From Microbulbifer thermotolerans (GTDB lineage: Bacteria > Pseudomonadota > Gammaproteobacteria > Pseudomonadales > Cellvibrionaceae): a stretch of 64,000 bases of DNA. The translations under genes and the position numbers were made by a program. This document shows, in pieces, positions 11,834 to 49,480 of this stretch. The stretch lies in assembly GCF_900112305.1 (NCBI RefSeq), contig NZ_FOKT01000006.1, forward strand, positions 310,001-374,000, read 5' to 3'. Positions within the stretch are counted from its first letter, which is position 1. Every line of letters starts with the position of its first letter. The notes beneath the pieces were generated by a model, which worked only from the letters and a program-made list of their open reading frames with translations, had not been told where the DNA came from and ran no database searches.

Positions 11834-11849
11834 GCCTGAGGATAATGCT

Positions 11850-23946: not shown

Positions 23947-24687
23947 ATGAGCGAACTTGTCTACTACGATCTAAAACGTTCGGCGTCTATGTCGCCGAGC
24001 CTTTCCGTACAGGTGGCCCGCGAACTGGGACGCCGTATCGTTGCCGGTGCCATTGAAACCGGTACGCTTCTCGATGAAGAAAATGCGCTGGCGGAGCGTT
24101 TTAAAGTCAGCCGGGTGGTTATACGGGATGCGGTCAAGATTCTGGTCAGCAAGGGAATGCTGGATGTGCGGCGCGGAATTGGGACACGGGTACGCCCCAG
24201 AACGGATTGGATTCTGTTGGATGACGATGTGCTCGCGTGGCACTTGTCTGCGCCGCCCAATCACGAATTCCTGAAGCAACTGCTGGAAATTCGGATTGCC
24301 TTTGAACCGAAGGCTGCCCGCTGGGCCGCGGAGCGCGGTACAGAGGAAGACATCGCCACGATACGCGCCGCCTGCGATCAGATGGAAGCGTCCGTCGGTT
24401 CGTCGGAAGGTTTTGTGGTCGCCGATGCGCTGTTCCACAAGGCCATACTCAGTGCCGCGCACAACGATATACTCACTGCCATAGAAGGTGTCATCTACTC
24501 GGCGCTGTTGGTCAGCATCAAAATCACTAACCAGACCAGGGAAAGCAATCTCCAGTCTGTGCCTTTTCACCGTGAAGTGCTGGAAGCGATTGCCGCCCGC
24601 GACGGCGATTTGGCGGAGCAGCTTACCAGCAAGCTATTGGAAGACGCTGCTGAGCGCCTTTACAGAGAAATGGCGTCCTGCACATAG
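23947..24687 (+). CDS. GntR-family regulator, FCD subgroup (copy 2)
   Basis: A 246-residue tandem paralogue of the preceding regulator, collinear over the whole length. The recognition-helix segment V-S-R-V-V-I-R-D-A-V-K-I-L-V is identical in both, so both should read the same DNA. Differences concentrate in the FCD domain, which binds effector, and in the C-terminal tail, suggesting divergence in ligand response. ATG at 23947 is chosen by alignment to copy 1; another ATG lies three codons upstream. It ends just before a strong terminator. It could act as a second sensor, a heterodimer partner or a backup. Confidence 0.92.
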   Translation: MSELVYYDLKRSASMSPSLSVQVARELGRRIVAGAIETGTLLDEENALAERFKVSRVVIRDAVKILVSKGMLDVRRGIGTRVRPRTDWILLDDDVLAWHLSAPPNHEFLKQLLEIRIAFEPKAARWAAERGTEEDIATIRAACDQMEASVGSSEGFVVADALFHKAILSAAHNDILTAIEGVIYSALLVSIKITNQTRESNLQSVPFHREVLEAIAARDGDLAEQLTSKLLEDAAERLYREMASCT

Positions 24688-29757: not shown

Positions 29758-31188
29758 TCAATTACTGTCAAGGTAAACCGTGCGTTTTTGAAGATATCCT
29801 TCGATACCGTAAACCCCATCTTCGCCACCGATACCGCTGCGCTTATGCCCAGAGTGGTAGCCCTGGATATAGCCCACAATCTGTTTATTCACAAAGACAG
29901 TGCCAACTTCCAGGCGCGAAATTCCGTCCATAATGGTGCGGTAGTCGTTCGTCCATAAGTAGCAGCTGAGTCCGTCTTCACGGCGATTGTTGATTGCCAC
30001 TGCATCATCGTAGGATTTAATTTTGACGATTGGTAATACCGGGCCAAATATCTCCTCCCGGGCGGCTGCCATATCCGGTGTGACCTCAGTGAGTACGGTG
30101 GGTAGATACCAGTTTCCTTTCTCAAATTGAGCACCCTGGGGGCGCTCGCCGCCGCACGCAAGTTTGGCTCCGGATTCTATGGTGTCACGCACAATGGTTT
30201 CTACCCGGTTAAGATTCTGTGCGGTGACGGATGGCCCCATATCCGGGTTGTCCATTGGGTCGCCGACTTTGAGCTGCTTCACTTTCTCTACAACTTTGCG
30301 GGTAAACTCTTCTGCGACTTTTTCGTGGACCAGAACAAGCTCTGCACAAATACAGACCTGGCCGCAGTTGGCATAACGGGAGGTAACTACAGCATCGGCG
30401 GCTTTGTCGATATCTGCATCTTCGAGAACGATAAAGGATGCTTTTCCCCCCAACTCCAGGGAAACAGCAGTGATGTTTTCCGCCACCGCACGGCAGATTG
30501 CCTGGCCCGCGCGTATACTGCCAGTTAGAGTGACAAGCTGGGTGATAGGGCTTTTGACCAGGTGCTCTCCGACCGCAATTCCGCTGCCGCTAATGACATT
30601 GATGACGCCTTGCGGGATTCCGGCTTCCTCTACGGCTTTGGCGAATTCCATTGCAGTAACCGGAGTTGCTTCGTGAGGTTTCACAATTATTGTATTTCCG
30701 GTAACCAGTGCGGGGCCGACTTTGCGTCCAATCAAGGCAAGTGGATAGTTGAAAGCACACAGGCCGATGGTAACGCCATAGGGCACTTTTTGTATCCAAA
30801 GTTGCTCTCCGGCGTTATCGGACGGAAATATCTTTCCTTCCAGTCTTCGTGCCGCTTCTGCGGAGTAGGTGAGATACGTCAGTGTATCGTCAAATTCACC
30901 ATAGGCTTCGTTCAGGGTTTTTCCCTGTTCTAGCACTAAGAGCCGGGCAAAATGGTCTCGTTTTGGCTTTAGAGTTTCAATTAAGCGGAAGATGTGTCGG
31001 CCTCGTTCGATTGCGGGGAGCATTTTCCAGCTTTGCAAGGCCTGCTGTGAAGAGGCCAAGGCCTCATCCGCGTGTTCAGTGGTGCAATCGGGAACCCTGG
31101 CGAAGATTTCTCCGGTCGCCGGGTTTTCCACGGCGATATGTTGTTCGCTATCTATCCATTTTCCATCGATATAGCATTGATAGCTCAT
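29758..31188 (-). CDS. AldA-like aldehyde dehydrogenase
   Basis: NAD-dependent aldehyde oxidation, cytoplasmic. About 476 residues, with Asn147 (A-F-N-Y-P), Glu245 (L-E-L-G-G-K) and Cys279 (G-Q-V-C-I-C-A-E). The C-x-C-A-E ending and terminal G-I-G-G-E-D-G resemble E. coli lactaldehyde dehydrogenase AldA and the copy at 46934. An ATG at 31188 starts the domain; an ATG five codons upstream is equally usable. It is the last gene of a minus-strand run that includes two CoA-transferases and an enoyl-CoA hydratase, 168 bp after the hydratase gene. In that setting it could produce the acid that is activated by CoA transfer, or oxidise an aldehyde released from the CoA thioester. Substrate unknown. 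Confidence 0.85.
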
Positions 31189-31356
31189 TTCTCCGGTAGT
31201 CATTTTTCCCTCACTTTTTATCGTTCTGTTAGTGGTATTTGCTAAAGTAGGATGGTGTTTCCATCGGGGGCTCTGGTCACTGCCAATGGCTTAGCCTGGA
31301 CACGGGTTGGATAATCCGTGTGTCTTTCGGCAGTGAGATCCTTAAGGTAGAATCAC

Positions 31357-32151
31357 TTACTGATTGAACACCGGTTTGCGCTTCTCCAGAAAGGCACTGA
31401 GCCCTTCCTTGGCGTCCGCTGTTTCATAGAGTGAATCCGCCAGTTCGGATTCCAGAGCCAAGGCCCGATCCAGTGGCAGCGAGCACCCTTCCCGCAATGC
31501 GCGTTTAATTGCGGTGGATGCGCGACCAGGACCTTGTGCCAGCTCTTCGGCAAAGTTCTGTGTGCCTTCGCGCAATCCCGTACGGCTGTAGAGGCCGTCC
31601 AGCAGGCCAAGTTCGTTTGCTTGCGCCACACCGAAAGTATCACCGGTAAGCAGTATTTCTAGTGCGGCTCGGAATCCGATGCGGCGCAAAAGCCTTTGTG
31701 TACCGCCGTTTCCAGGGATCAGGCCTAGCTTGATTTCCGGTAAACCGAAGCGGTAATCGCCCTCCGATGCGAATATAAAGTCACACGCCAATGCGATTTC
31801 CAGTCCGCCTCCCAAGCAGTGGCCTGCGATCTGAGCGATATAAATTTTACTGCTGTTCTCGATCTCTAACGCATTGGTTCTTGCCTGTGAGACAAGGGCA
31901 AGATTTTCCTGCACTGTGTTGTTTGCAAATACCTTGATGTCGGCTCCCGCACAGAAAAATTTTTCAAGGGCGCTTTCGATAATTACAACCCGTATTGCGT
32001 CATTTTTTTCCAGGGTATCTACAGCATCGCCAATTTCGCGTAAAAACGCTTCATAATATGCGTTCGCGGGCGGAAGGTTCAGGGTGATACGCGCCACTCC
32101 AGTGGGTGATGTCTGTATCGATATAGCGTTATGCGTTCTGTTCTCTCTCAT
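31357..32151 (-). CDS. Enoyl-CoA hydratase/isomerase (crotonase family)
   Basis: Acts on an acyl-CoA in the cytoplasm. 264 residues with the crotonase fold: A-G-A-D-I-K-V-F oxyanion segment, H-C-L-G-G-G-L-E-I-A-L-A-C-D and P-E-I-K-L-G-L-I-P-G-N-G-G-T-Q-R. Both glutamates used by hydratases (in G-G-L-E and P-E-I) are present, so true hydration of a 2-enoyl-CoA is likely rather than isomerisation. ATG at 32151 is chosen at the domain start; it overlaps the upstream CoA-transferase by 23 bp, implying translational coupling. Acrylate-using AcuN/AcuK pairs combine the same two families, one possible precedent; the substrate here is unknown. Confidence 0.87.
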   Translation of the reverse strand: MRENRTHNAISIQTSPTGVARITLNLPPANAYYEAFLREIGDAVDTLEKNDAIRVVIIESALEKFFCAGADIKVFANNTVQENLALVSQARTNALEIENSSKIYIAQIAGHCLGGGLEIALACDFIFASEGDYRFGLPEIKLGLIPGNGGTQRLLRRIGFRAALEILLTGDTFGVAQANELGLLDGLYSRTGLREGTQNFAEELAQGPGRASTAIKRALREGCSLPLDRALALESELADSLYETADAKEGLSAFLEKRKPVFNQ

Positions 32152-33316
32152 TGTAGGCCCCGTTATTATTGATCTCGTTTTGAATGGCTGCTTGGTTTTG
32201 CCCGAGTTTAGGCGCTGGTTTGCTGCCCCAGAGCCGTTCGTCATCGATGCGAATTGGACAACGACTTGTGATGATTTCAGTGCCCTTCTGCATTGGTAGA
32301 GACTGCAACATATCGAGCTGAATAAATCCCTGGTGATCCAAGAGTTGGTCCCAGTTGAGAACCTCGGCACACCAGATATCTTCGGGTTCCAGCTTTGATA
32401 GCCAGTAGGCGGTTGGTTGCGTCGGCAGGTGATCTGCGAGAATTGCCTTTATCGCGTCGCGTTCACTGTAGGCTATTGAGGGGTTGGTGTACGGCAGTAA
32501 TGCGGGACAGTCCAGTAGCCTGGCCAGGTCCTTTATCTGCCCCATGGAGAGTGCAATGTAGCCGTCACTGGTTCGGTAAAAACCATAAGCACCAGCAACC
32601 AGCGTATGGGCGCCATTTACTTTTGCGCGCTCGATTTTCTGGCTTGGGTCGTGGAGCAGTATGGTCAGGGGTTCAAACTGGAAGTCGAGCATGGCTTCCA
32701 GCATACTGATTTCTACATAAGCGCCTTCTCCGGAAAGTTCGCGGGCAAAAAGCGCGGCGAGAATGCCCTGTACCAAGAGCGCGCCAGTGAAGATATCCGC
32801 AACGGGTACTCCCATGGCAACGGGGCCATCGTTTGCGCTGCCGGAAAGCCATGTGATACCGGATAGCGCTTGCAGAAGCAGGTCTTGCCCCGGTCGGTTT
32901 TTCCACGGCCCTTCTTTTCCGTAGCCGGTGATTTCCCCATAGACGATACGCGGATTGATGGCTTTAACGGAGTCGTAGTTCAATTCCAGCCGGTCCATAA
33001 CGCCGGGGCGAAAGTTGCTGATAATGACGTCCGCTTTGCGTATGAGTGCGTGGATATTCTGCCGCTGTGCGGCGTCTTTCAGGTCGGCACAGAAACTTTC
33101 TTTGTCCCTATTAATGGCGTGAAATAGTGTGGATTCGCCTTCAATAGTGCAGTCGGACAGGTACAGTTTGCGGCAGTCATCGCCTCCGTCCGGTCGTTCG
33201 ATTTTTATGACTCTCGCCCCCAAGTCAGCCAGTCTGAGTGCGGCGGATGGGCCCGAGAGGTACTGGGAAAAGTCCAGAACCAGACAGCCGTCCAAGGGTT
33301 TACTCGGGAAACTCAT
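32129..33316 (-). CDS. Class III (CaiB/BaiF) CoA-transferase, copy 2
   Basis: Transfers CoA between carboxylates. 395 residues with the family III N-terminus ([24 protein letters not shown]), [19 protein letters not shown] and V-A-D-I-F-T-G, whose Asp174 sits where formyl-CoA transferase has its catalytic aspartate. Start ATG at 33316 overlaps the stop of copy 1 by 4 bp (ATGA). It is paralogous to copy 1 throughout. Two adjacent copies suggest a heteromeric enzyme (the family forms interlocked dimers) or two acids needing activation. A two-domain family III protein, DddD, acts on DMSP; a relation is speculative. Confidence 0.88.
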
Positions 33317-34467
33317 TGCAATTCCTCTAGAATGCTTGCTGTATCGGCGCCCAGTGTCGGGGCCGCCCTGGGACTTGACAGTGTTCTTCCATTGATGCGA
33401 ATCGGACACCGGGTTGTGGTGACGTTGACGGGATTTCCAGTGCCGTTGTTACTTTCGCGGCTCACTGTCAGTGGGATTGACAGTGCTTTAAACGCGGGGT
33501 GTTGCAGGAGCTGGTCGTAGTTCAGAACTTCTGAGGCCCACAGGTGATGGCTGTTCATTCGCTCTAGCCAGTGGGCGGTGGTGTTTGTTTTCAGGTGCTC
33601 TGCCAGTTTCTTTTTTATCTGGTCGCGTTTAACAAAGGCTTCACTTATGGATACATTAAGCTCGGGCAGTGCCAGGGCTTCGGACAGTTGCCCGGGTTCG
33701 CCCATCGAAATAGCGATCCAGTGATCCCGGGTCTGATATATACCGTAAGGAGCTCCGAGCAGTGCGTGTGCATTGGCAATTTCGCTGCGGCTGGGCATTT
33801 GGCGGCCATTGTTGAGGTAAGTTGTAAGGCCTTCAAACTGCAGATCAATCATGCTTTCAAGCAGGCTGACTTGCACTTTGGCTCCGATATTTTTTTTCTT
33901 GCGCCGGATCAGTGCCGAGAGAATGCCTTGGGCAAGATGGGTGCCGCATAGCATGTCCGCGATGGCCAGTCCTAGGGGAACCGGGTCCTGATTTTTATTG
34001 CCACTTAGCCAGCCAATTCCGGAGACGGCTTGTGCGAGGAGGTCTTGACCGGGTTTATGCGCCCAGGGGCCTTTGTCTCCGTAGCCACTGACTTCGCCGT
34101 ATATAATGCGCGGGTTTATGGATTGGACACCCTGGTAGTCCAACCCGATTTTTTCCATCACGCCGGGGCGGAAATTGTGTGTCAGGACATCTGCCTTTTG
34201 AATCAGTTTGCGTACTGTGGCGAGATCTTCACTGTCTTTCAGGTTTGCGCAGAAAGACTCTTTATTCCGGTTTATGGTATGAAAGAGCAGGCTGTCGCCA
34301 TCGACGGTCAGATCTTTAGTGGTCAGTTTTCTGCAGGCGTCGCCACTGCCGGGACGCTCTATTTTTATCACCCGCGCGCCGAGATCCGCCAAACGCAGGC
34401 CCGCATAGGGGCCTGCCAGGTATTGGCTGAATTCAAGGACAGTGATTCCTTTAAGTGGTAACAGCAT
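33313..34467 (-). CDS. Class III (CaiB/BaiF) CoA-transferase, copy 1
   Basis: 384 residues. Family III signatures: [40 protein letters not shown] and I-A-D-M-L-C-G with candidate catalytic Asp171. It aligns end to end with copy 2 at roughly half identity by eye, including the terminal R-C-P-I-R-I stretch, so the pair arose by tandem duplication. It begins 3 bp after the stop of the solute-binding-like gene. Substrate unknown; family members act on carnitine, oxalate, bile acids, benzylsuccinate, acrylate and mesaconate. Confidence 0.9.
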
Positions 34468-34470
34468 TAA

Positions 34471-35637
34471 TCAACCTTGCCGTGACTTTATATAGAGTTT
34501 ATTGAGATCTTGAAGCAGTGCCTGTGCATCTCCGCCGTGCATGAGGTAGTCGCGAATGGGGGCACCGGCGTTGTCTTGGAAATACATATGCCCATGATAG
34601 CGCGGGCGCAGGAAGGCGCGATCCAGCGTCGGCAGCGTATTGACAAAATAGTTGTTGGTCATTCGGTTGGCGGTTTCGTTGATCCAGGCGCGACGATGGC
34701 CCGGCTGTCCTCCATACTGGATATAAAAGGAGGCCTGGAAGTCCGGATCTCCGGTAAACGCAACAAATTGTGCGGCTATTTCCGGGTGACGCGTGTGGGC
34801 GGAGATGGCGAGTCCGGTGCCACCCAGGGTGGTTTTCAGATGTTCACCATTGGGCCCTGCGGTCACGGTATCGCGAAACTCCAGGGTTTTGCGCGCGTAG
34901 CCCGGTTGGGCGTAGTTGGCGTATCCGTAGGCGAAGGGGCAGTAGGCGAAGTCGTCAGTTAAGGTCATCGCCTCGTAAACTTTGATCGGATTCCAGTCAA
35001 AACAGCGCCTATCCAGCTGATCTGATAGTGCTTTCAGCATGGCCAGCGCTTCGACTCCTACTGAATTGCTCACCACTTCTTCTTCTCTTGTGCACGGGTC
35101 TTCGCCCATCGCGGAACACAGCATGTAGAAATTCATGAGGGTGTCCTGGGGAATACTGGGTACCGCGACCAGCCCACGCTCCGCCAGGGACATCAGGTCT
35201 TCCCAGGTTTTCGGCTCGTCGACGCCGGCTTTTTGCAGCAGATCGGGACGCAGAGAGGCAACGGGAGTGGCGGCATCCAATGCCAGTGCCCACTGTTGTC
35301 CGTCGTAGTGGTAAGAGTTGTGGGATTCACCCACCGCATTGTCTGCCTGGTCTTGGAGAAATTCCCGCGGCAGATGTTCGTCCAGCGGCAGGATGACTTT
35401 TTCCTTGGCCGCAAAGCCCGTCCAGGGGTGGTCGATCACCAGCAGGTCGTAGCGGGCGGCCAGGTCATCGATAGGATGATCGGCAAACGCCTGTAGTGAG
35501 CGCTTGTCCCAGCGAATGCTGATATTGGGATTCAGTTCTTCAAATCGCTGCGCTGCCGCTACCAAAGGGGTATAGCCGCGCGTGTGGTCCCAGGTCATGC
35601 CGTGCAGGGTGATTTTCTTGCTATCGGAGCTGCTCAT
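34471..35637 (-). CDS. Solute-binding-protein-fold protein (family 1) lacking a signal peptide
   Basis: A 388-residue protein with the look of ABC extracellular solute-binding proteins for sugars: L-V-A-A-A-Q-R-F-E-E-L-N-P-N-I-S-I, G-Q-Q-W-A-L-A-L-D-A-A-T-P, T-W-E-D-L-M-S-L-A-E-R, G-G-T-G-L-A-I-S-A-H-T-R-H-P-E-I-A-A-Q-F-V. There is no export signal: the N-terminus is MSSSDSKKITLHG and the domain begins at once. No ABC permease or ATPase gene is in the window. It is the first gene of the CoA-transferase operon. ATG at 35637 follows AAGAGAG; an ATG ten codons upstream adds only polar residues. A cytoplasmic ligand-binding or chaperone-like role, or recruitment of the fold as an enzyme, has to be considered. 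Misannotation as an ABC component is likely in databases. Confidence 0.8.
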   Translation of the reverse strand: MSSSDSKKITLHGMTWDHTRGYTPLVAAAQRFEELNPNISIRWDKRSLQAFADHPIDDLAARYDLLVIDHPWTGFAAKEKVILPLDEHLPREFLQDQADNAVGESHNSYHYDGQQWALALDAATPVASLRPDLLQKAGVDEPKTWEDLMSLAERGLVAVPSIPQDTLMNFYMLCSAMGEDPCTREEEVVSNSVGVEALAMLKALSDQLDRRCFDWNPIKVYEAMTLTDDFAYCPFAYGYANYAQPGYARKTLEFRDTVTAGPNGEHLKTTLGGTGLAISAHTRHPEIAAQFVAFTGDPDFQASFYIQYGGQPGHRRAWINETANRMTNNYFVNTLPTLDRAFLRPRYHGHMYFQDNAGAPIRDYLMHGGDAQALLQDLNKLYIKSRQG

Positions 35638-35713
35638 AAGTCTCTCTTGGGAAGCAGTGGCGGGCATTGGTTTGCTCCGCAGTTTGACGGCTCATCAGGA
35701 TATTTTTTATATA

Positions 35714-35728
35714 TGAATTATTGATTCA
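35714..35728. promoter_or_regulatory. Palindrome between solute-binding-like gene and iclR
   Basis: TGAAT-TATTG-ATTCA, 5+5+5, set in an AT-rich stretch in the divergent intergenic region. This is a likely IclR operator controlling the CoA-transferase operon and perhaps iclR itself. Confidence 0.45.
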
Positions 35729-35830
35729 AGTATAAAAATCGTTTTTCGGCGCTGTCAACCTGTGCTTAAATGCGCTTTTGCGCGAGCTGAGCGCCGGTTT
35801 GCCGGCAGGGCGTGGAATTGGGGGGGAGCT

Positions 35831-36583
35831 TTGCCCAGCAAGATCAAAAAATATGCGGTGCCTGCGTTGGACAAGGCACTGGAAATCCTGGAGTTTCTGG
35901 CGGCGGAGTCGCTGCCACTGTCGCAGTCGGAGATTGCACAGGGCATTGGCCGTACGAGCAGTGAGATATACAGGGTGTTGGTGGGACTCGAGGCGCGGGG
36001 TTATCTGCTGCGGGATGATGTTTCCGGCAAGTACCGGATGTCTCTCAAGCTGCTGGAGCTGACCCGAACGCTTTCACCGGTCTCGCAGCTGCGCTTCGCC
36101 GCGCAGCCGGAGATGGAGTTCCTGGCGGCCCGGCTCGGCCAGTCCTGTCACCTGAGTGTGATTCACCAGGGACAGTTGATGGTGATATTGCAGGTGCAGA
36201 GTCCCGGTCCGGTGTCTCTTTCGTTCAACGAGGGGACACTATTTCCGCTTCTGCAAACGGTGTCTGGAAGGGTGTTGCTGGCAAATTGTGCCAGTGACCG
36301 CAGGGCCAGGCTGTTGCAGGTGCTGCCCGAGCCGTCACAGAGAGCGGCGCAGGAGGAGGCGTTGCTGGCAGTTCGGGAAGCGGGCTATGAGCTGTGCAAC
36401 AGTGAATTGACCGATGGAGTAACCGATTGTGCCGCGTTGGTGGGGCGCCCCGATGGCGAGACCATTGCCGCGTTGGCGGTTTCGAGTTTGACTTCGGTGC
36501 TGGGAAAGCAGTTGGGGCGCGAAGAGCTGGTGTGCGCAGTGCGGGATTCCGCCGCCAAAATCAGTACGGCGCTGGGGTTGTAA
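35831..36583 (+). CDS. IclR-family transcription regulator
   Basis: DNA-binding regulator, 250 residues. N-terminal winged helix (about 5-75: P-A-L-D-K-A-L-E-I-L-E-F-L, S-Q-S-E-I-A-Q-G-I-G-R-T-S-S-E-I-Y-R-V-L) and a C-terminal GAF-like effector domain with G-Q-S-C-H-L-S-V and F-P-L-L-Q-T-V-S-G-R-V-L-L-A. TTG at 35831 is preferred as start because GGGGGGAG lies 3-9 bases upstream and the family domain begins right after; an in-frame GTG at 35762 would add 23 atypical residues. It is divergent from the solute-binding/CoA-transferase operon and is its probable regulator. Confidence 0.9.
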   Translation: MPSKIKKYAVPALDKALEILEFLAAESLPLSQSEIAQGIGRTSSEIYRVLVGLEARGYLLRDDVSGKYRMSLKLLELTRTLSPVSQLRFAAQPEMEFLAARLGQSCHLSVIHQGQLMVILQVQSPGPVSLSFNEGTLFPLLQTVSGRVLLANCASDRRARLLQVLPEPSQRAAQEEALLAVREAGYELCNSELTDGVTDCAALVGRPDGETIAALAVSSLTSVLGKQLGREELVCAVRDSAAKISTALGL

Positions 36584-39924: not shown

Positions 39925-41079
39925 ATGAAAATATCTGACATCAAGGCGTACCCTGTATGGGTGGGGCACAGAAATCTGTGCCTGGTAAAAGTAGAGACCG
40001 ACGAGGGAATCTACGGTTGGGGGGAGTCCGGTCTCTCCAGTCGTGAGTTGGCGGTGGCAGGAGCAGTAAAGCATTTCCGGGAGTTTTTGCTGGGGCGCGA
40101 CGCGCGCAATATTGGAGCGCTGTGGCAGGAAATGTACCGCAGTCAGTATTTCGAAGGTGGGCGGGTATTAACCGCGGCGATTTCCGCAATCGATATCGCC
40201 TTGTGGGACATCGCCGGTAAGGCACTGAATGTGCCGACTTATCAACTGTTAGGTGGAAAACAGCGAGATGTCATTCCTCTATTCGTGACTTCCACAAAAC
40301 CCATGGGCAGTGCGTTGCTGGATGATATCCGCGCACTGGCTGATCAAGGGTGGGAGGTGATTCGGGCCACAACAGGCGAGCACGGTTCTGCAGTTCAGCC
40401 CACCACTTTCGATGTACGCCGTTCCATTGCCGCCACCTCAGGCAGTCTGAGGGAAATTCGGCAAGAGCTGGGTGAAGCGACAGTTTTGGGGATCGATTAT
40501 CACCACCGCTTGTCGGTGGCGGAGGCCGCAAGCTTCTGCCAGAAGCTTGGTGAAGGCGTGCTGGATTTTATCGAAGAGCCGATCCGAGATCAGTCTCCTT
40601 CCGCATACCAGGGATTGCGGCGCATGGTCGATGTTCCCTTTGCCATCGGCGAAGAGTTCGCCAGTAAATGGGACTTCATGCCTTATATTGAGCAGGACAT
40701 CACCAATTTTGCCCGCATTGATGTCTGCAATGTTGGGGGGCTGACAGAAGCTATGAAAGTCGCCGCCATGGCCGAGTCTCACTATATCGATATTATGCCG
40801 CATGACCCTCTGGGGCCGATCTGTACCGCAGCCACAATACAAATGTGTGCGGCGGTACCGAATCTCTCCTGGTGCGAAATAGCACCTTACGACAGTGATA
40901 CCTCTGACCACGATAAGTTTTTTATCAATCGTCCCAAAGAAGTCAACCGGGCATATCCCGTAGGTGATGCGCCAGGTCTCGGTATTGACGTGAATGAAGC
41001 GTTGATCGCGGAACAATCATTCAAGTACTGGGAAGCGCCGCGCCTGTATAAACCGGATGGCAGCTATACCAACTGGTAG
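39925..41079 (+). CDS. dgoD: D-galactonate dehydratase-like enolase-superfamily protein, second copy
   Basis: 384 residues, paralogous to the protein at 11850 along its whole length. Active-site set: Asp191 and His193 (D-Y-H-H-R), Glu217, Glu243, and the later P-H-D-P-L-G-P histidine, in the spacing of E. coli DgoD. Predicted product is 2-keto-3-deoxygalactonate from D-galactonate. It differs from the first copy mainly between residues 118 and 165, the part that lines the substrate pocket in this superfamily, so substrates may differ slightly. It follows the SDR gene by 35 bp and precedes the GH50 gene by 28 bp, all on one strand. Confidence 0.78.
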   Translation: MKISDIKAYPVWVGHRNLCLVKVETDEGIYGWGESGLSSRELAVAGAVKHFREFLLGRDARNIGALWQEMYRSQYFEGGRVLTAAISAIDIALWDIAGKALNVPTYQLLGGKQRDVIPLFVTSTKPMGSALLDDIRALADQGWEVIRATTGEHGSAVQPTTFDVRRSIAATSGSLREIRQELGEATVLGIDYHHRLSVAEAASFCQKLGEGVLDFIEEPIRDQSPSAYQGLRRMVDVPFAIGEEFASKWDFMPYIEQDITNFARIDVCNVGGLTEAMKVAAMAESHYIDIMPHDPLGPICTAATIQMCAAVPNLSWCEIAPYDSDTSDHDKFFINRPKEVNRAYPVGDAPGLGIDVNEALIAEQSFKYWEAPRLYKPDGSYTNW

Positions 41080-41107: not shown

Positions 41108-43549
41108 ATGAAATCAACGTCTATGAGTTTGCATACATTTGCACCTTTGGCTGTATCCCGTTCAAGCAGGTCTTTTGTCTTTGCAGCGTTATTCAGTCTG
41201 ACCGCGTGTGGCGGTGCCTCCGATCCATCTGTACCGAAGGTGCAAGCCGCTTCTACATCCGGGCAGTTATCTGAAGATTTAGTGCTCGAAAGTTTTGACA
41301 AGACGGCTATTCCCGCAACTGTAAAAGTCAATAATGGCGCAGTCTCACTGGTAGATAGTGCGCGAGGGGATAAAGCACTGCTGGTTAAGTTGGATCTCAA
41401 AGAAAACAACAGTGCAGCACTTGTGATTGCACCAGAAGAACCTTGGGACTGGAGTGAATTTTCCGATTTCAATCTGGCTTTTGATGTGGCCAATAAGGGC
41501 ACTGAATCAGTGCAAATAGACGTCACAATGACGGACAAAAACGGAGACTCCTATACCCGGGGCATGGTGGTTCCGGCGGACGGTGTTTGGCGTACATACT
41601 ATGCCAAACTGCACGGACACGATCAGCAGGATCCAGACAGTGCGGCCAAAAATGAATTCAATTTCTCTTCGGGATTGCGTTCCAACCCTCCAACATGGCA
41701 ATCCGATGACGTTATGCTCCACTCTTTTTGGGGGAAAAAGTTACTGGATTTAAGTGGTATAACAAAAATTTCCTTCGGCTCAGATGGGAGTCTTAGCAAT
41801 CGTCAGTACACGATCGATAACATCCGTCTGCGTGCCAATCCGGAGATGGATAAAAATTTCCTGACTGGTCTGTTGGATAAGTACGGGCAGAATGCCAAAG
41901 TGGACTACGAGGGCAAAATTCACTCGGACGAAGAACTAAGGGCCGTTGTAGCGGAAGAGCTGGCGGGGCTTTCAGGAAAACTTAATGAGGGGCGCTCCAA
42001 GTACAGCGGATGGAAGGATGGTCCCCGTTTTAAATCCACTGGCTACTTCCGTACGCAAAAGGTAAACGGAAAGTGGGCGCTAATTGATCCGGAAGGCTAT
42101 CTATATTTTTCTACTGGTATCGATATTATCCGTCTTTCGAATTCATCAACAATTACTGGCTACGACTACGATCAGGCACTGATTCCCGCGCGCAGCGATG
42201 ATGAAGTTATAGCCGAAGACGATCAGCCGCTGAATCGTGTGAATGAAAAAGCCTGGGCCACCCGGCATTTGGTTTCGGAGACCCGTGCGAAAATGTTCAC
42301 CTGGCTGCCCGACTATAATGACCCTCTGGGCAACCACTACGGTTATCGCCGTGAAACCCAGTCTGGCCCACTCAAACACGGCGAGACATTCAGCTTCTAT
42401 AGCGCCAACCTTGAGCGCCGCTATGGAGAGAGTTACCCGGAATCCTATCTGGATACTTGGCGCAAGGTGACAGTTGATCGCATGCTGGACTGGGGGTTCA
42501 CTTCTCTCGGTAACTGGGCCGACGCGTCTTTTTACCAGGAGGAGAGGATTCCTTTCGTCGCCTTCGCGGATATTATCGGTGACTTCGGAACCCTTTCCAG
42601 CGGTTTTGATTTTTGGCATCCGGTGCCAGACCCCTTTGATCCTAGATTTTACCAGCGCGCCCTTGTCGCGGCCGAATCCGTCAATCAGCAGATTAACGGC
42701 AGCCCGTGGTGTATGGGGGTGTTCTTCGATAATGAGCAAAGCTTCGGCCGGCTGGAGTCCGATGAACTGCACTACGGTATAGTCATCAACGCCTTGTCGA
42801 GAGATGCAGCGGATACACCGGCCAAAAGCGCTTTTACCGAAATTTTAAAGAAAAAATATGGTTCAATTGAGGCCTTGAATAAGGCTTGGAACAAACAGGT
42901 TGCGTCCTGGGAGGCATTTGCAGCGGGCATGGATTCCAGTATCAGTACGGATGCGCAGTTGGAAGACTACGCCAGCCTGCTGTTTGCATATGGAGACCAG
43001 TATTTTGGCACTATCAACCGGGCCATGAAATCCATTATGCCAAATCACCTTTACCTCGGTTCCCGGCTGCCCAGCTGGGGAATGCCGGATGAGATCGTAA
43101 AGGCCGCGGCCAAGAACGTCGATATTATCAGTTACAACTTGTACGAAGAAGGTCTGGTGCCGTCCAAGTGGGAGTTTCTTGCTGAAATAGACAAACCCAG
43201 CCTGATCGGTGAATTCAGCTTCGGTGCTGATGATCAGGGACATTTCCACCCGGGTATTGTTATTTCGGCGGATCAAAAAGACCGCGGTCGTATGTTTAGG
43301 AACTATATGTACTCCTTTATCGACAATCCGTACTTCGTCGGTGTACACATGTTCCAATATATGGATTCCCCGATAACTGGCCGTGCCTATGACGGTGAGA
43401 ACTATGCCAATGGGTTTGTTTCCGTAACCGACGTACCTTACATAGAGCTGGTCAAAGCGGCCAAAGAAGTCAATGGCAGTCTCTATAAGCGCCGGTATGG
43501 TGATGTACAGTTGCGCGCTCGCTCCGCTAGCGAAAGGGGCTCTGATTAA
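41108..43549 (+). CDS. GH50 beta-agarase, lipoprotein
   Basis: Hydrolyses agarose or neoagarooligosaccharides, typically releasing neoagarobiose. The 813-residue protein has a signal with lipobox L-T-A-C (Cys about residue 35), an N-terminal beta-sandwich like a carbohydrate-binding module (about 55-250), and a TIM-barrel GH50 domain (about 300-800). Candidate catalytic glutamates are Glu543 in F-D-N-E-Q-S-F-G (acid/base) and Glu702 in I-G-E-F-S-F-G-A (nucleophile), both in the wording of the family. It is the clearest marker that this second locus is for agar rather than carrageenan. No GH117 or other alpha-neoagarobiose hydrolase is in the window. Confidence 0.9.
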   Translation: MKSTSMSLHTFAPLAVSRSSRSFVFAALFSLTACGGASDPSVPKVQAASTSGQLSEDLVLESFDKTAIPATVKVNNGAVSLVDSARGDKALLVKLDLKENNSAALVIAPEEPWDWSEFSDFNLAFDVANKGTESVQIDVTMTDKNGDSYTRGMVVPADGVWRTYYAKLHGHDQQDPDSAAKNEFNFSSGLRSNPPTWQSDDVMLHSFWGKKLLDLSGITKISFGSDGSLSNRQYTIDNIRLRANPEMDKNFLTGLLDKYGQNAKVDYEGKIHSDEELRAVVAEELAGLSGKLNEGRSKYSGWKDGPRFKSTGYFRTQKVNGKWALIDPEGYLYFSTGIDIIRLSNSSTITGYDYDQALIPARSDDEVIAEDDQPLNRVNEKAWATRHLVSETRAKMFTWLPDYNDPLGNHYGYRRETQSGPLKHGETFSFYSANLERRYGESYPESYLDTWRKVTVDRMLDWGFTSLGNWADASFYQEERIPFVAFADIIGDFGTLSSGFDFWHPVPDPFDPRFYQRALVAAESVNQQINGSPWCMGVFFDNEQSFGRLESDELHYGIVINALSRDAADTPAKSAFTEILKKKYGSIEALNKAWNKQVASWEAFAAGMDSSISTDAQLEDYASLLFAYGDQYFGTINRAMKSIMPNHLYLGSRLPSWGMPDEIVKAAAKNVDIISYNLYEEGLVPSKWEFLAEIDKPSLIGEFSFGADDQGHFHPGIVISADQKDRGRMFRNYMYSFIDNPYFVGVHMFQYMDSPITGRAYDGENYANGFVSVTDVPYIELVKAAKEVNGSLYKRRYGDVQLRARSASERGSD

Positions 43550-43885: not shown

Positions 43886-43943
43886 AGGGGCGGTAAGACG
43901 CTTTTGCGGGACTGTATGCACAGTAAAGAAATTGGGTTCCACC

Positions 43944-45083
43944 ATGTTGACCGAAGTACAAGAACAGGCTCCCCGTCAGATGGCCCCCGGCACTATCGCG
44001 GCAACCAAGGTCGAGTATTACCAGATTCCGCTAGCCGAAGTGCTTTCAGATGCTCGTCACGGTGATCACACGCATTTCGAGCTGCTGGTGTTCCGGATAC
44101 GCTGCAGCGATGGCTTGGAAGGTGTGGGGTATACCTACACCGGCGGGCGCGGGGGGCGCGCTATTTATTCTCTGCTGAAGGATGATATTCAGCCCTTGCT
44201 GGAAGGCCGGGATTCCTCGGAGATTGCCGCCATCTGGGAAGATATCCAGTCACACCTGCATTATGTGGGGCGGGGAGGGCTTTTGAGCTTTGCAGTCTCT
44301 GCGGTGGATATCGCGTTATGGGATCTGCGCTGCAAGCGCCTCAATCTGCCGTTGTGGAAGGTGGCTGGCGGCGCTGGCAATACCACAAAGTGCTATGCCG
44401 GCGGTATTGATCTGAATTTCTCCGAGTCAAAGCTGCTTGACAACATCTCCGGCTATTTGTCCCGCGGCTTCAATGCGGTAAAGATCAAAGTGGGTAAGGA
44501 AGATTACCGCGAGGACGTGGCCCGGGTGGAGGCCGTGCGCCAATTGATCGGTGATGATGTCACTTTCATGGTGGATGCCAATTACTCAATGACGATTGAA
44601 CAGGCAGTGCGCTTTGGCCGAGCGGTTGATCACTGTGCTATCACCTGGTTTGAAGAGCCCACCATTCCCGATGACTATACTGGCTACGGCCGTATCGCTG
44701 ATGCCATTAACATTCCCCTGGCGATGGGTGAAAACCTGCACACTGTGCACGAGTTTACCTACGCCATTGCGCAGGCAAAACTCGGATTTCTTCAGCCGGA
44801 TGCTTCTAATATCGGTGGTGTAACCGGCTGGTTGAAAGTGGCGGAGTTGGCTTATGCGTACAACCTTCCGGTGTGCAGTCACGGTATGCACGAACTGCAC
44901 GTTTCCCTTATGGCGAGCCAGCCTCACGCGGGTTATCTGGAAGTTCACAGCTTCCCCATAGATGAATATACAACCCGCCCCATCGTGCTGGAAAACGGTC
45001 GCGCCCAGGCTTCCAATGAGCCAGGCACTGGCGTGACTTTCGATGAAACCCTGCTCAGACCGCATTTGGTCATGCACACTTGA
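43944..45083 (+). CDS. Enolase-superfamily protein, candidate 3,6-anhydro-L-galactonate cycloisomerase
   Basis: Predicted to convert anhydro-L-galactonate to 2-keto-3-deoxy-L-galactonate. 379 residues with a mandelate-racemase-type site: Lys180-x-Lys182, metal ligands Asp211, Glu237, Glu263 and His313 (C-S-H-G-M-H). ATG at 43944; an in-frame TTG four codons upstream is less likely. It is the first gene of the five-step set 43.9-48.4 kb. It is neither close to the DgoD-type copies (no K-x-K there) nor to the cycloisomerase candidate at 18732, consistent with the opposite stereochemistry of the agar sugar. A galactarate/talarate or fuconate dehydratase is the alternative. Confidence 0.78.
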   Translation: MLTEVQEQAPRQMAPGTIAATKVEYYQIPLAEVLSDARHGDHTHFELLVFRIRCSDGLEGVGYTYTGGRGGRAIYSLLKDDIQPLLEGRDSSEIAAIWEDIQSHLHYVGRGGLLSFAVSAVDIALWDLRCKRLNLPLWKVAGGAGNTTKCYAGGIDLNFSESKLLDNISGYLSRGFNAVKIKVGKEDYREDVARVEAVRQLIGDDVTFMVDANYSMTIEQAVRFGRAVDHCAITWFEEPTIPDDYTGYGRIADAINIPLAMGENLHTVHEFTYAIAQAKLGFLQPDASNIGGVTGWLKVAELAYAYNLPVCSHGMHELHVSLMASQPHAGYLEVHSFPIDEYTTRPIVLENGRAQASNEPGTGVTFDETLLRPHLVMHT

Positions 45084-45095
45084 TAGGTGGAGATA

Positions 45096-46127
45096 ATGCA
45101 AGCTCTAGCAGCTCAATACGTCGGTAACCGGTCTTTTGAAATACTTGAGGGACGTGTTGATGCGCCCTCGGCGGGTGAGGTGCGCCTGAGAGTCGGCTAT
45201 GTCGGTATCTGTGGTACCGATATGCACATCTACCATGGCCTTATGGATTACCGCGTGCAGCCGCCGCAAGTGGTGGGGCACGAGATGTCCGGTGTAGTGG
45301 ATGCGGTGGGTGCAGATGTTACCGGTTTTAGCGTCGGCGATCGGGTAGTGGTTCGTCCGCTGGATTACTGTGGAGACTGTCCGGCGTGCCGGGAAGGATA
45401 CAGTCACATCTGTCATAACCTGAAATTCATGGGGGTGGACTCTGAAGGCGCATTCCAGAGTTACTGGAACGTCAAAGCCAGAACGTTACACAAGCTGCCG
45501 GAGCATGTGTCCCTTAAACAGGGCGCTCTGATCGAGCCGCTGGCCGTGGCCTGTCACGATGTGTCGCGTGCCCGCTTAAAAGCCGGTGAGAAGGCAGTGA
45601 TTCTTGGTGGTGGACCCATTGGTCAGCTGATTGCGCAGGTGGCGATCGGCATCGGCGCCGAAGTCATGATATCCGAGCCGAGTCCGGAACGCAGAAGCTT
45701 CGCCACAAGTAACGGCGTGTTAGCGGTGAATCCCGTCGAGCAGGATTTAAAGTCTGCGGTAGACGAATGGACCGGCGGCAAAGGTGCCGATGTAGTATTC
45801 GAAGTTTCCGGTGTTCAACCCGCTGTGGACGTTATGACTGAAATTGCCGCTGTGCGCGGCCGTATCTGCATGGTGGCCATTCATTCGAGCAAGCCGCAGG
45901 TAGATGTGTTTAAGTTTTTTTGGCGCGAGCTGGAGCTGGTGGGCGCCCGAGTCTATGAAGCGGAGGACTTCGAGCGGGCGATTGATATGGTGGCGGACGG
46001 TAAGATCGACCTGGAGCCTTTTATCAGCAAGGTGGCGCAGCTGGATCAAATCGATAGTGCCTTCTCCAGCATGGATGGAAACCCCTCCGGTATGAAGGCT
46101 TTGGTGTCCTGTGGCGCCGATGGCTAA
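45096..46127 (+). CDS. Zinc-dependent alcohol dehydrogenase, candidate KDGal 5-dehydrogenase
   Basis: Medium-chain NAD-dependent alcohol dehydrogenase, 343 residues. Catalytic zinc site: Cys near residue 35 (G-I-C-G-T-D) and G-H-E; structural zinc: C-G-D-C-P-A-C-x7-C; cofactor loop G-G-G-P-I-G. ATG at 45096 follows AGGTGGAG; the stop of the enolase gene is 13 bp upstream. In known anhydro-L-galactose pathways 2-keto-3-deoxy-L-galactonate is oxidised at C5 and then reduced with inverted configuration to KDG. Together with the KduD next door this enzyme would supply the oxidation. Substrate assignment rests on that pairing. Confidence 0.85.
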   Translation: MQALAAQYVGNRSFEILEGRVDAPSAGEVRLRVGYVGICGTDMHIYHGLMDYRVQPPQVVGHEMSGVVDAVGADVTGFSVGDRVVVRPLDYCGDCPACREGYSHICHNLKFMGVDSEGAFQSYWNVKARTLHKLPEHVSLKQGALIEPLAVACHDVSRARLKAGEKAVILGGGPIGQLIAQVAIGIGAEVMISEPSPERRSFATSNGVLAVNPVEQDLKSAVDEWTGGKGADVVFEVSGVQPAVDVMTEIAAVRGRICMVAIHSSKPQVDVFKFFWRELELVGARVYEAEDFERAIDMVADGKIDLEPFISKVAQLDQIDSAFSSMDGNPSGMKALVSCGADG

Positions 46128-46164
46128 GTGAGTCAGTCAAATAATATTTTAAGGGGTGAAATTT

Positions 46165-46929
46165 ATGTTGGATCAATTCAGTCTTGAGGGAAAAAAAGCC
46201 TTGGTTACTGGGTGCAACCGAGGTATCGGTAAGGCGATGGCTGTTGCATTGGCGGAAGCTGGTGCCGACGTGATCGGTGTATCGGCCAACTTGAGCCTGA
46301 CTGAGTCTGAGGTGGCGAGTGAGGTAGCGGCTACTGGAAAACATTTTTTTCCCTATCAGTGCGATTTTTCCGACCGCAATTCTCTCTATGCATTTATCGA
46401 TAAAGTGAAAACGGAACATCCACGAATCGATATTCTCGTCAATAACGCCGGCACAATTTTGCGAGCCCCTGTCGTGGAGCACGGGGATGATTTGTGGGAT
46501 AAGGTGATTGAGGTCAATCTCAATGCCCAGTTTATCCTGAGCCGTGAAATCGGTAAGGAGATGGTTGGCCGGGGATCTGGAAAAATTATTTTTACAGCCT
46601 CTCTGCTGACTTTCCAGGGAGGAATTACAGTTCCTGGATACGCCGCCAGTAAAGGTGCCATTGGGCAGATTACAATGGCGCTGTCCAACGAGTGGGCCAG
46701 CAAAGGGGTGAACGTCAACGCGATAGCACCAGGCTATATTGCTACCGATAATACGCAGGCGCTGAGAGAAGATAGTGAGCGAGCGGCCAGTATCCTAGCG
46801 CGGATACCCCAGGGGCGCTGGGGGGTTCCGGAAGATTTTAAAGGCCCTGTGGTTTTCCTTGCATCCGAGGCTTCCAATTATATGAACGGTAGTATCCTTC
46901 TGGTGGATGGCGGTTGGATGGGGAGATAG
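46165..46929 (+). CDS. kduD: 2-dehydro-3-deoxy-D-gluconate 5-dehydrogenase (KduD)
   Basis: NAD(P)H-dependent SDR that reduces 2,5-diketo-3-deoxygluconate to 2-keto-3-deoxygluconate. 254 residues, strongly like E. coli KduD: F-S-L-E-G-K start, V-T-G-C-x-x-G-I-G, N-N-A-G, L-x-F-Q-G-G-I-x-V-P-x-Y-x-A-S-K, [14 protein letters not shown]-x-G-R-W-G, and V-D-G-G-W at the end. ATG at 46165 follows AAGGGG. Here it would complete the C5 epimerisation of L-KDGal to D-KDG begun by the alcohol dehydrogenase upstream. Pectin and alginate loci use the same enzyme, but nothing else of those pathways is in the window. Confidence 0.9.
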
Positions 46930-46933
46930 TCTG

Positions 46934-48382
46934 ATGGCGCTAAAAAACAATGTGAATTTTATCAACGGTGACTATGTTGCTTCCCACTCGGAAGGAATTA
47001 TTGAAGTGCTTAACCCCAGTACCGGAGAAGTTCTGGGGGCTATTCCCAAAGGGTGCGTAGAGGATGCGGAGGTGGCGCTCAATGCCGCAAAGCAAGCGCA
47101 AAAAGCCTGGGCGAAACGGACAGCCCGGGATCGCGCGGCGCTGCTGCGTAAATTTGCCGCGGCTATTCGGGCGGAAACAGAAATTCTTGCCGAGCTGCTG
47201 GTAAAAGAGCAGGGCAAATTAATTGGTGTTGCTCGCGACGAAGTCAATGCAACCGCCACTTTTATCGAGTATGCCTGCGACAATGCGTTGACACTGGAAG
47301 GAGATATTTTGCCTTCAGATAACGAAGGCGAAAAAATTTATATCCACAAAGTGCCGCGTGGTGTGGTGGTGGCAATTACAGCTTGGAATTTCCCCTTGGC
47401 ATTGGCTGGCCGCAAGATCGGTCCGGCGTTGATCACAGGCAATACCATTGTGGTGAAGCCCACCCAGGAAACGCCGCTTGCGACCATGGAGTTGGGGCGC
47501 ATTGCCAACGAAGTGGGGATTCCCGCTGGTGTTTTGAATATCGTCAATGGCGAGGGATCCGTGGTTGGTCAGGCGCTTTGCGAAAGCCCGCTTACCGCCA
47601 TGATTACAATGACCGGCAGTACTCGCGCAGGCCAGATTATCCATCAGGCCAGCGGCAAGCACATGATTCCGGTGATGCTGGAGCTTGGGGGTAAGGCGCC
47701 GTTTATCGTGATGGAGGACGCAGATCTGGACAAGGCAGTTGAGGCGGCGCTCTGGACTCGTTTTGCCAATTGCGGCCAGGTTTGTACTTGTGCTGAACGC
47801 CTGTACGTCCACGAAGACGTCTATGACGCTTTTATGGATAAGTTTGTGCCCAAAGTGAAAGCGCTGAAAGTCGGGAATCCGATGGATGCAAGCGTGCAGG
47901 TAGGCCCGAAGGTGAACGCCCGCGAAATTGAGCATATTCACGCGCTCGTGCAAAAGAGTATCGAGCAGGGGGCTGAGCTCGTCTGTGGTGGCAAGCGCGC
48001 ATCGGTGGAAGGCTTTGAGGGGGGCAACTGGTACGAGCCTACGGTTCTGACCAATGTTCGGCAGGATAATATTTTGGTGCACGAAGAAACCTTTGGCCCG
48101 GTCCTGCCCGTGGTGAAAATTTCCAGCATTGATCAGGCGATTGAGTATACCAATGACAGCGAGTACGGCCTTTCTGCCTATCTGTTCAGTGCGAATCTGA
48201 AGTATATACACCGTGCTATTGCCGAAATGGAAGTTGGGGAGGTATATGTGAACCGGGGTATCGGGGAGCAGCACCAGGGATTCCACAACGGGTGGAAGAA
48301 AAGTGGTATTGGTGGTGAGGACGGACGTTACGGCCTGGAACAGTACGTGGATAAGAAAACGATTTATTTCAATGAACTCTGA
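46934..48382 (+). CDS. AldA-like aldehyde dehydrogenase, candidate 3,6-anhydro-L-galactose dehydrogenase
   Basis: 482 residues with Asn152 (A-W-N-F-P), Glu250 (L-E-L-G-G-K-A-P) and Cys284 (G-Q-V-C-T-C-A-E), and the terminal G-I-G-G-E-D-G shared with E. coli AldA and with the protein at 29758. Predicted to oxidise anhydro-L-galactose released from agar, the first committed step; the cycloisomerase at 43944 then acts. It begins 4 bp after the kduD stop and is followed by a strong terminator, so it is the last gene of the operon. Lactaldehyde or glycolaldehyde oxidation is the alternative. Confidence 0.85.
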
Positions 48383-48424
48383 CTGATCGACTCTTTTCTT
48401 TCATCTCATCAGGATGAATTTTTG

Positions 48425-48448
48425 CGGGGATTATTCCCCGTTTTTTTT
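48425..48448 (+). terminator. Rho-independent terminator after anhydro-L-galactose operon
   Basis: CGGGG (48425-48429), ATTATT loop, CCCCG (48436-48440), then eight T. The rest of the 381-bp gap up to 48763 holds no gene that I can support. Confidence 0.88.
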
Positions 48449-48714
48449 GCCTGCGAAAGTGCTTCTGAGGCGTCAACGCGCGTGTTTCAGCCGGTTTCGG
48501 GGCACACTATCTACTTGGCTCTCTTGGCCAAGAAGTATCGTTGTTTTCAGGGAGTGAAAGCATTGCAGGTGCCCTGTCTAGTCGCCGTCGTTTTTCTTCC
48601 AGGTACGGAGTGCCCCTAATGCTCTCGGCTAAGAGAATCAGGGGGTTCCCAAGTGGGCAGGGGGTAATGCGCCCAAATTGTGTGTCTTGCGATACAGGGC
48701 TGGGTCAGACGGAT

Positions 48715-48735
48715 AGCCCGGCAATCGGCCGGGCT
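48715..48735 (-). repeat. Hairpin downstream of third gntR
   Basis: AGCCCGGC-AATCG-GCCGGGCT, 8-bp perfect stem 29 bp past the gntR stop on the minus strand. It lacks a T-tract; possible terminator or end-protecting structure. Confidence 0.45.
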
Positions 48736-48763
48736 CTAGGCTGTCGTTATTAAGAGGCTTATG

Positions 48764-49372
48764 CTATTTGATGTTGGCGCGCAGCGCCGTGGTGGCCACA
48801 TTGATCTTGTTGGCCTTAAGTGCGTCGAGAATCGCACGGTGCTCGTCAACGCAATCTTTGGGGTCGGAAATGCGCTTGTAGTTCATGCGCATACGTAACA
48901 CGATCGGATACCAAAGGTTGACCAGCTCATCACCGCCAGCGGCGCGGATCAGGTACATATGAAAATCGATATCTGCCTTGGTGACTTCGTGGAATTCCTG
49001 CGCGTCGAAGGCATCTTGCAGCCGCTCAAGAATGTCTTCCAGTTCGGCAAAATCCATTTCGGTCAATTTGCCTTTTAGGTTTCGTATTGCGTGTACCTCG
49101 ATTCTGCGGCGGATGTCGATCATCAATTCCTGCATCGAGGGGTCCAGCACGCTGTTGACTGAGACTCCGCAATTGTTCTTCGCTACCAACAGGCCTTCCT
49201 TGGTAAGCTGCAACAATACGTCGCGCACCGGCCCCCGGGAAACGCCGAATCGGTTGGCGAGCTGTTGTTCATTCAGTTTGGTATTGGGAGCAAGTTTGCC
49301 CGAAATGATATCGGAGCGCAGTTGATCCGCGATCTGTTCGCGGACGGGAATAATCTTATTGGCCTCACGCAT
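48764..49372 (-). CDS. GntR-family regulator, FCD subgroup (third, unlike the tandem pair)
   Basis: Transcription regulator of about 202 residues. Winged helix near residues 10-75 (R-E-Q-I-A-D-Q-L-R-S-D-I-I-S-G-K-L-A-P, F-G-V-S-R-G-P-V-R-D-V-L-L-Q-L) and FCD domain with D-I-D-F-H and C-terminal D-E-H. The recognition helix differs from the pair at 23-24.7 kb (S-R-G-P-V-R-D rather than S-R-V-V-I-R-D), so it should read another operator. TTGT-N2-ACAA, a normal FadR/GntR site, recurs at the promoters of this locus and fits. ATG at 49372; an in-frame GTG 16 codons upstream is possible. It is divergent from dgoK. Confidence 0.9.
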   Translation of the reverse strand: MREANKIIPVREQIADQLRSDIISGKLAPNTKLNEQQLANRFGVSRGPVRDVLLQLTKEGLLVAKNNCGVSVNSVLDPSMQELMIDIRRRIEVHAIRNLKGKLTEMDFAELEDILERLQDAFDAQEFHEVTKADIDFHMYLIRAAGGDELVNLWYPIVLRMRMNYKRISDPKDCVDEHRAILDALKANKINVATTALRANIK

Positions 49373-49480
49373 ATTCGTATCTGCTGACCAGTTAATCTTG
49401 GGGTGGGAGCGTATCGCCACCGCGGTATTTCGTCGAAAGACCCCTAGTGGGGTATGCCGGGATTTCTAGTCCCAGACCAC

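Follow-up and report, generated by a model that had tools for sequence, protein, structure and literature searches.

The window analysed here is a stretch of 64,000 nucleotides from Microbulbifer thermotolerans (contig NZ_FOKT01000006.1, positions 310,001 to 374,000), and its own numbering is used below. It contains an operon of five minus-strand genes with a divergent regulator. The first gene encodes a leaderless protein of 398 amino acids with the family 1 solute-binding fold (the solute-binding protein, SBP; 35667–34471, with a second ATG at 35637). It is followed by two class III coenzyme A (CoA) transferases, CaiB1 (34467–33313) and CaiB2 (33316–32129), a crotonase of the enoyl-CoA hydratase type (32151–31357), and an AldA-like aldehyde dehydrogenase (ALDH, 31203–29758). 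The regulator, facing away from SBP on the plus strand (35762–36583), matches Pfam IclR_C and HTH_IclR. All six genes were found and the start codons of the five operon genes checked, and the gene positions and spacings given in the initial annotation were reproduced: a 3-bp gap between SBP and CaiB1, a 4-bp overlap of CaiB1 with the start of CaiB2, and a 23-bp overlap between CaiB2 and the crotonase gene. The earlier description of five tightly packed genes holds from SBP to crotonase but not for ALDH, which lies 153 bp further downstream and is thus less tightly packed. No RNA element reached the gathering score between positions 24000 and 44000.

The SBP matches Pfam SBP_bac_8/SBP_bac_1, and its predicted fold also places it in family 1. 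The conserved TWDH motif starts at residue 25; over the N-terminal 40 residues, the mean hydropathy of a 15-residue stretch peaks at −0.19, compared with 1.8–2.1 in three control SBPs linked to ATP-binding cassette (ABC) transporters. No export signal or lipobox was found on the window SBP by hydropathy and start-codon checks, made without a dedicated signal predictor. Of 92 relatives, 65 offer a single start codon upstream of the motif; over the whole set, the first start lies at a median of 10 residues from it. Even when the longest frame is taken, 90 lack any hydrophobic stretch, L097 and L099 being the exceptions. Hence the SBP looks cytosolic, as the initial annotation had supposed. The absence of ABC partners, also noted there, agrees with the lack of any match between the window open reading frames (ORFs) and cluster models of ABC permeases and ATPases, models built from few loci. 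Plasmid records annotate relatives as extracellular or ABC solute-binding proteins. Compared with the CUT1 proteins it resembles at 14–16% identity (the trehalose/maltose-binding protein 1eu8 and SmoF), the SBP has no signal peptide and no visible ABC partner, and its genetic partner is a CoA-transferase. An alignment of 50 rows has 29 invariant columns, including His28, Arg30, Asp74, Asp79 and Arg354. Asp79 and Arg354 have aligned counterparts in 1eu8, an Asp and an Arg which we take to be sugar-binding positions, and we propose that the sugar pocket is kept.

The CoA_transf_3 domain spans the full length of CaiB1 and CaiB2, placing both in class III. The Asp of the PGQD motif, presumably the catalytic residue of this class, is present in both, as the initial annotation had reported, and throughout the CaiB alignment, whose 161 rows represent 159 genes (the window pair was entered twice). 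CoA transfer is the predicted activity. None of the models for carnitine, oxalate, formyl, succinate-glutarate and mesaconate CoA-transferases matched the window proteins at the NCBIfam cut-off; for the carnitine model PRK03525 the scores are 69.1 and 85.9 bits, far under the cut-off of 413.

The tree of CaiB proteins, built from every second of 72 two-CaiB loci and ten single CaiBs, separates two groups by position in a fixed gene order. Cai2, which includes CaiB2, lies on one side of a branch with SH-aLRT 98; Cai1, which includes CaiB1, has SH-aLRT 100 and contains one single-copy CaiB. In four Hymenobacter loci (L038:11336-13714, L051:11289-13745, L055:11278-13659, L080:11281-13728) the two are fused in one reading frame of 792–818 residues with the Asp motif in both halves; the alignment that included these fusions placed every single CaiB on the second half. 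The two positional groups, the fusions and the universal Asp suggest that CaiB1 and CaiB2 form one heteromeric enzyme. Heteromeric class III CoA-transferases with two different subunits encoded side by side do exist, for example, benzylsuccinate CoA-transferase, which differs from the window pair in its substrate and in having no binding protein. No fusion of SBP with CaiB was seen, long frames such as that of L009 being open frames only.

The crotonase (Pfam ECH_1) retains both Glu residues noted initially as catalytic, and so do all 24 members of its cluster. In the sister operons described below its place is taken by a MaoC protein, whose D..P.H motif is kept in 51 of 54 cases. The Glu pair and D..P.H are taken to be the functional motifs of the two families. 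The ALDH (Pfam Aldedh) resembles AldA and lactaldehyde dehydrogenase: it matches the structure 2hg2 (381.5 bits), and its score with PRK10090, 478.9 bits, is under the curated cut-off of 500. Its three best relatives among the fetched loci (67–69% identity) all come from loci that share the gene set of the window operon.

Relatives of the SBP are numerous. A plasmid search yielded 145 records in which a relative spans 80% or more of the query; Sinorhizobium accounts for 90 of these records, and Streptomyces is also represented. A scan of genome contigs yielded at least 586 confirmed stretches, of which the best 80 were retained as relatives. The matches listed include agar-named Gammaproteobacteria (Agaribacterium, Marinimicrobium agarilyticum, Gilvimarinus agarilyticus, Agaribacter), many Bacteroidota, Paenibacillus, Rhodopirellula and Anaerolineae; phylum names were taken from record titles, annotation lines or treekit. 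The core of the system, the leaderless SBP with class III CoA-transferases, is spread over several phyla. A viral or phage origin was rejected, as six peptide patterns of the window SBP had no relative in viral contigs, and none was found in phage records.

Clustering of neighbours in 99 loci and the window revealed three layouts; L021 and L030 belong to one genome but count separately here, in the adjacency and motif counts and in the CaiB alignment. Type A, the window layout, usually has IclR followed by SBP, CaiB, CaiB, crotonase and ALDH, often with GH2 added; members of the IclR cluster occur in 47 of the 99 loci outside the window. Thirteen further locus rows (12 distinct loci, from Gammaproteobacteria and Bacteroidota) have the five genes contiguous in this order, and SBP, CaiB, crotonase and ALDH share the fetched span in 20 rows (19 distinct). 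The initial annotation had named a lack of conservation elsewhere as grounds for refuting it; the operon is in fact conserved, and the finding is real and wider than could be seen there. Since the gene set recurs, chance assembly of five families is ruled out.

Type B (51 loci) has SBP, CaiB, CaiB, a second SBP, Gfo/Idh/MocA, and MaoC instead of crotonase, often with a transporter; in four loci an alcohol dehydrogenase (ADH) and a short-chain dehydrogenase (SDR) precede MaoC. The ALDH cluster is found in none of the 51 rows. In the cluster of the second SBP, the AVRxFxxFE motif is present in 52 of 60 members, and in 46 of these 52 it lies at most 15 residues from the first start of the frame, leaving no room for a leader; other members are ordinary ABC-linked SBPs. 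This second leaderless family, with an N-terminus of the FRIAVRKFxPFE type, follows CaiB2 at L054:13618-14856 and in other type-B loci.

Type C, from the Alphaproteobacteria, mostly has a single CaiB beside SBP and mostly MaoC or crotonase, and often adjoins IclR and a sugar ABC transporter with an SBP of its own. In the Roseibium and Shinella loci this separate SBP has a hydrophobic N-terminus. No locus with modelled sugar permeases is from the Bacteroidota. The alphaproteobacterial loci also carry enolase-superfamily genes. These loci may perhaps serve L-fucose. Of their neighbours, a lactonase-like one has no solved relative at 1e-20, and the Gfo/Idh/MocA neighbour matches generic Gfo/Idh/MocA structures only.

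A same-strand CaiB adjoins SBP for 80 of the 94 called SBPs, in 44 of these 80 with a 4-bp overlap. The count leaves out six of the 99 loci in which SBP was not called: in L009, L010, L011, L015 and L017 the two genes are side by side, and in L018 CaiB is about 2.6 kb off. Among the 14 called SBPs with no called adjacent CaiB, four are followed by the fused CaiB-CaiB, and L019 and L020 proved adjacent on checking; in L008 crotonase sits between SBP and CaiB, in L016, L096 and L101 CaiB is elsewhere in the span, and the last four (L014, L088, L092 and L093) lack it there. Altogether 96 of 100 loci, the window included, have CaiB within the fetched span. In the Microvirga locus L014:6994-9179, where the span contains no CaiB, SBP overlaps by 4 bp a gene annotated as mannonate dehydratase.

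In genome samples drawn without regard to similarity rank, SBP was found in 18 of 398 Pseudomonadota, 16 of 296 Bacteroidota, six of 61 members of the family to which the window belongs, two of 293 in its order (a single-sequence search), and one of 249 in the phylum of Paenibacillus, that single hit coming from the centre genome itself; the E-value cut-offs for presence may miss divergent copies, and in some genomes only part of the first-pass candidates were scored. In 20 Pseudomonadota stretches (leaving out the window's own genome and G057), CaiB is adjacent in 16, separated by crotonase in one (L137), and about 6 kb away in three (L147–L149). In the Bacteroidota it is adjacent in 15 of 16 cases, and in G998 the CaiBs share the contig with SBP at a distance of about 61 kb. 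A reverse search of the same samples for genes close to CaiB1 returned, in the family, 12 genes at 463–682 bits, exactly in the six genomes with SBP (next gene, 245), and, in the Bacteroidota, 32 genes at 523–635 bits, exactly in the 16 genomes with SBP (next gene, 242). Co-presence is thus 22 of 22 genomes with SBP against 0 of 335 without it (357 genomes; Fisher 1.5e-35, the genomes not being independent lineages). The SBP and its CaiB subfamily are near-obligate partners, a well-supported result, and the initial view of these families as ones that seldom occur together is not supported.

The substrate may be judged from the accompanying genes. Four complete type-B operons (those of Persicobacter, L004, and of L034, L048 and L052) have ADH and SDR between Gfo/Idh/MocA and MaoC. 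The SDR appears, from its similarity to KduD, to be of the kind acting on 2-keto-3-deoxy-hexonates; that of Persicobacter scores 326.6 bits with TIGR01832 (KduD; cut-off 338.85). The window has relatives of both on the plus strand. Its zinc ADH (45087–46127) is 56–57% identical to the ADHs of L048 and L052 and 66% to an ADH near the AOL6 operon. Its SDR (46156–46929), whose best solved match is 4z9y, a 2-deoxy-D-gluconate 3-dehydrogenase, is 74–76% identical to those of L034 and L048 (74–77% when L031, from AOL6, is included). In the family, both genes are present in all six genomes with the operon and in five of 55 lacking it (Fisher 8e-6). In one positive genome, G300, they lie about 8–10 kb from SBP, and there is no close relative of the enolase-family gene at 39925 of the window; relatives of that gene are found in five of the six positive and three of the 55 negative genomes. 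The neighbours of the operons include 2-keto-3-deoxy-hexonate-type enzymes, lactonase-like genes, a rhamnose mutarotase, agarases and rhamnosidases. For polysaccharide genes, ten neighbours from six type-A loci were scanned: Agarase_CBM proteins are found in the window and L042, a porphyranase in L046, and sulfatases in L021 and L047.

From these genes we tentatively read the operon as a CoA-dependent sugar-acid dehydration system, the interpretation we favour although we would not call it probable. ALDH would oxidise a sugar to the aldonic acid, a step for which the sister operons perhaps use Gfo/Idh/MocA or SDR enzymes. CaiB1 and CaiB2, acting as a pair, would transfer CoA from the thioester of the product to the incoming acid; crotonase, or MaoC in the sister operons, would eliminate the group beta to the thioester, yielding a 2-keto-3-deoxy acid; and CoA would be handed on to the next substrate. 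The SBP would be the cytosolic partner that captures the substrate for the CoA-transferase. A 2-keto-3-deoxy hexonate is proposed as the product because ADH and SDR occur in type-B operons and in genomes with the operon, including G300. For the window, the likeliest substrate would be L-galactonate from agar or porphyran, since type A adjoins agarase-type and porphyranase genes in the loci examined (the window, L042 and L046) and both polymers contain L-galactose (PMC5613140). The product would then be L-2-keto-3-deoxygalactonate (L-KDGal), which ADH and SDR, as putative first and second steps, could convert to 2-keto-3-deoxygluconate (KDG). L-KDGal is taken to KDG in the tentative agar pathway of Paraglaciecola hydrolytica (PMC5943477); the assignment of the ADH and SDR families to these steps is ours, by analogy. 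The initial annotation had suggested degradation of an acid or aldehyde from red algae by CoA activation. Activation of a red-algal sugar-derived acid by CoA indeed fits best, but no neighbouring gene was seen for its candidates (acrylate, DMSP, floridoside-derived or halogenated acids), and the neighbours indicate sugars and sugar acids. The broader reading, that cytosolic sugar-binding-fold proteins capture sugar acids and present them to heteromeric class III CoA-transferases for dehydration as CoA thioesters, in a widespread and undescribed class of enzyme complexes, a CoA-dependent counterpart in several phyla to the metal-dependent aldonate dehydratases, is possible but rather doubtful.

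The closest analogy is with the carnitine system of E. coli, in which CaiB and CaiD cycle CoA between product and substrate (PMC2131755); the cycling proposed here is modelled on it. Both systems combine a class III CoA-transferase and a crotonase in one operon. However, the window operon has two transferases and a partner with the solute-binding fold, and Pfam detects no AMP-binding CaiC-type ligase among the six ORFs of operon and regulator. The 3,6-anhydro-L-galactose pathway lies in the same window and shares the L-KDGal to KDG arm with our proposal, but it uses a cycloisomerase, and the text of the P. hydrolytica paper contains no mention of CoA (PMC5943477). A literature search returned no description of the SBP–CoA-transferase pairing, in line with the remark of the initial annotation that no system of this make-up was described.

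Several observations weigh against the proposed pathway. The operon has no CoA ligase to prime the cycle, and a 2-keto-3-deoxy acyl-CoA would be unusual. The enolase-superfamily gene of the alphaproteobacterial loci could perform the same dehydration. As the L-KDGal arm also serves 3,6-anhydro-L-galactose, its co-occurrence with the operon is confounded with agar degradation, and five of the genomes without the operon also have it. In the fetched Pedobacter operons no ADH or SDR was seen and rhamnosidases are present, so a single substrate for all types is unlikely; the soil type-B loci likewise point to other sugars, given their rhamnosidases. As for the pairing, L014, L088, L092 and L093 contain SBP but lack CaiB throughout the fetched span, that of L088 being cut by the contig end. 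Nor do the sampled genomes represent independent lineages, and for the Bacteroidota the presence of SBP was the reason for choosing G708 as the centre.

An unlikely alternative, though the strongest, is that the SBP is itself an enzyme, an isomerase, lyase or lactonase acting on a sugar acid, with CaiB and the hydratase working before or after it. Binding folds have become enzymes, as in cyclohexadienyl dehydratase, a precedent for departure from transport (PMC7683729); that enzyme derives from amino-acid binding proteins and has no CoA partner, and catalysis by the SBP is hypothetical. The 29 invariant columns and the Microvirga SBP, which is accompanied by two mannonate dehydratase-like genes and no CaiB, are consistent with catalysis. 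Still, the conserved positions that presumably bind sugar in 1eu8 would fit plain binding equally well, and a free-standing enzyme would not need near-perfect pairing with CaiB.

A role for the SBP as a sensor in the cytosol, or as an allosteric effector, through which sugar binding switches CaiB or IclR, is improbable. The divergent IclR gene, present in the window and in various relatives, would suit it, and SBPs have signalling roles elsewhere (PMC7683729), but the frequent 4-bp overlap of SBP with CaiB and the occurrence of SBP in loci with no IclR of this cluster in the span argue otherwise. About equally improbable is a route for a small aldehyde from sugar cleavage, of the lactaldehyde or glyceraldehyde type, with ALDH producing the acid, CaiB activating it and crotonase hydrating or dehydrating the thioester. 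The similarity of ALDH to AldA and 2hg2 favours this route; however, type B lacks ALDH, the KduD-like SDR and ADH of four type-B operons indicate six-carbon 2-keto-3-deoxy acids, and a sugar-binding fold is better suited to a sugar. That the SBP is an ordinary exported protein of an ABC importer with a mis-annotated signal peptide, as its fold and Pfam family might suggest, is very improbable and was rejected given the missing leader in the window and nearly all relatives, the absence of permease matches in the window (with models built from few loci) and of modelled sugar permeases in the Bacteroidota loci, and the separate SBPs of the Roseibium and Shinella transporters.

The co-inherited pair suggests an undescribed way of sugar-acid breakdown. 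If the cytosol is where the SBP works, as many as several hundred copies (at least 586 stretches) are wrongly assigned to transport. If the proposed dehydration system is real, CoA is used to activate sugar acids, a chemistry seldom tied to sugar catabolism, a transport receptor has been recruited inside the cell as an enzyme partner, and the five genes are a candidate route for L-galactose from porphyran and related plant sugars.

Some other genes around the operons may be mentioned. Two enolase-superfamily paralogues, 56% identical, flank the operon on either side (11772–13013 and 39925–41079). The protein encoded at 41108–43549 bears the Agarase_CBM domain and is presumably an agarase or porphyranase of the GH86 type. 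The region 43932–49420, which comprises an enolase-family gene, the ADH, the KduD-like SDR, an AldA-like ALDH (541.9 bits with PRK10090, cut-off 500) and then a GntR regulator, is the probable shared arm of the L-anhydrogalactose pathway. Beside type-A operons of several Gammaproteobacteria, a DUF6786 protein (L030:7839-9029) recurs, and so does a protein of 151 residues with no Pfam match (L030:18062-18517).

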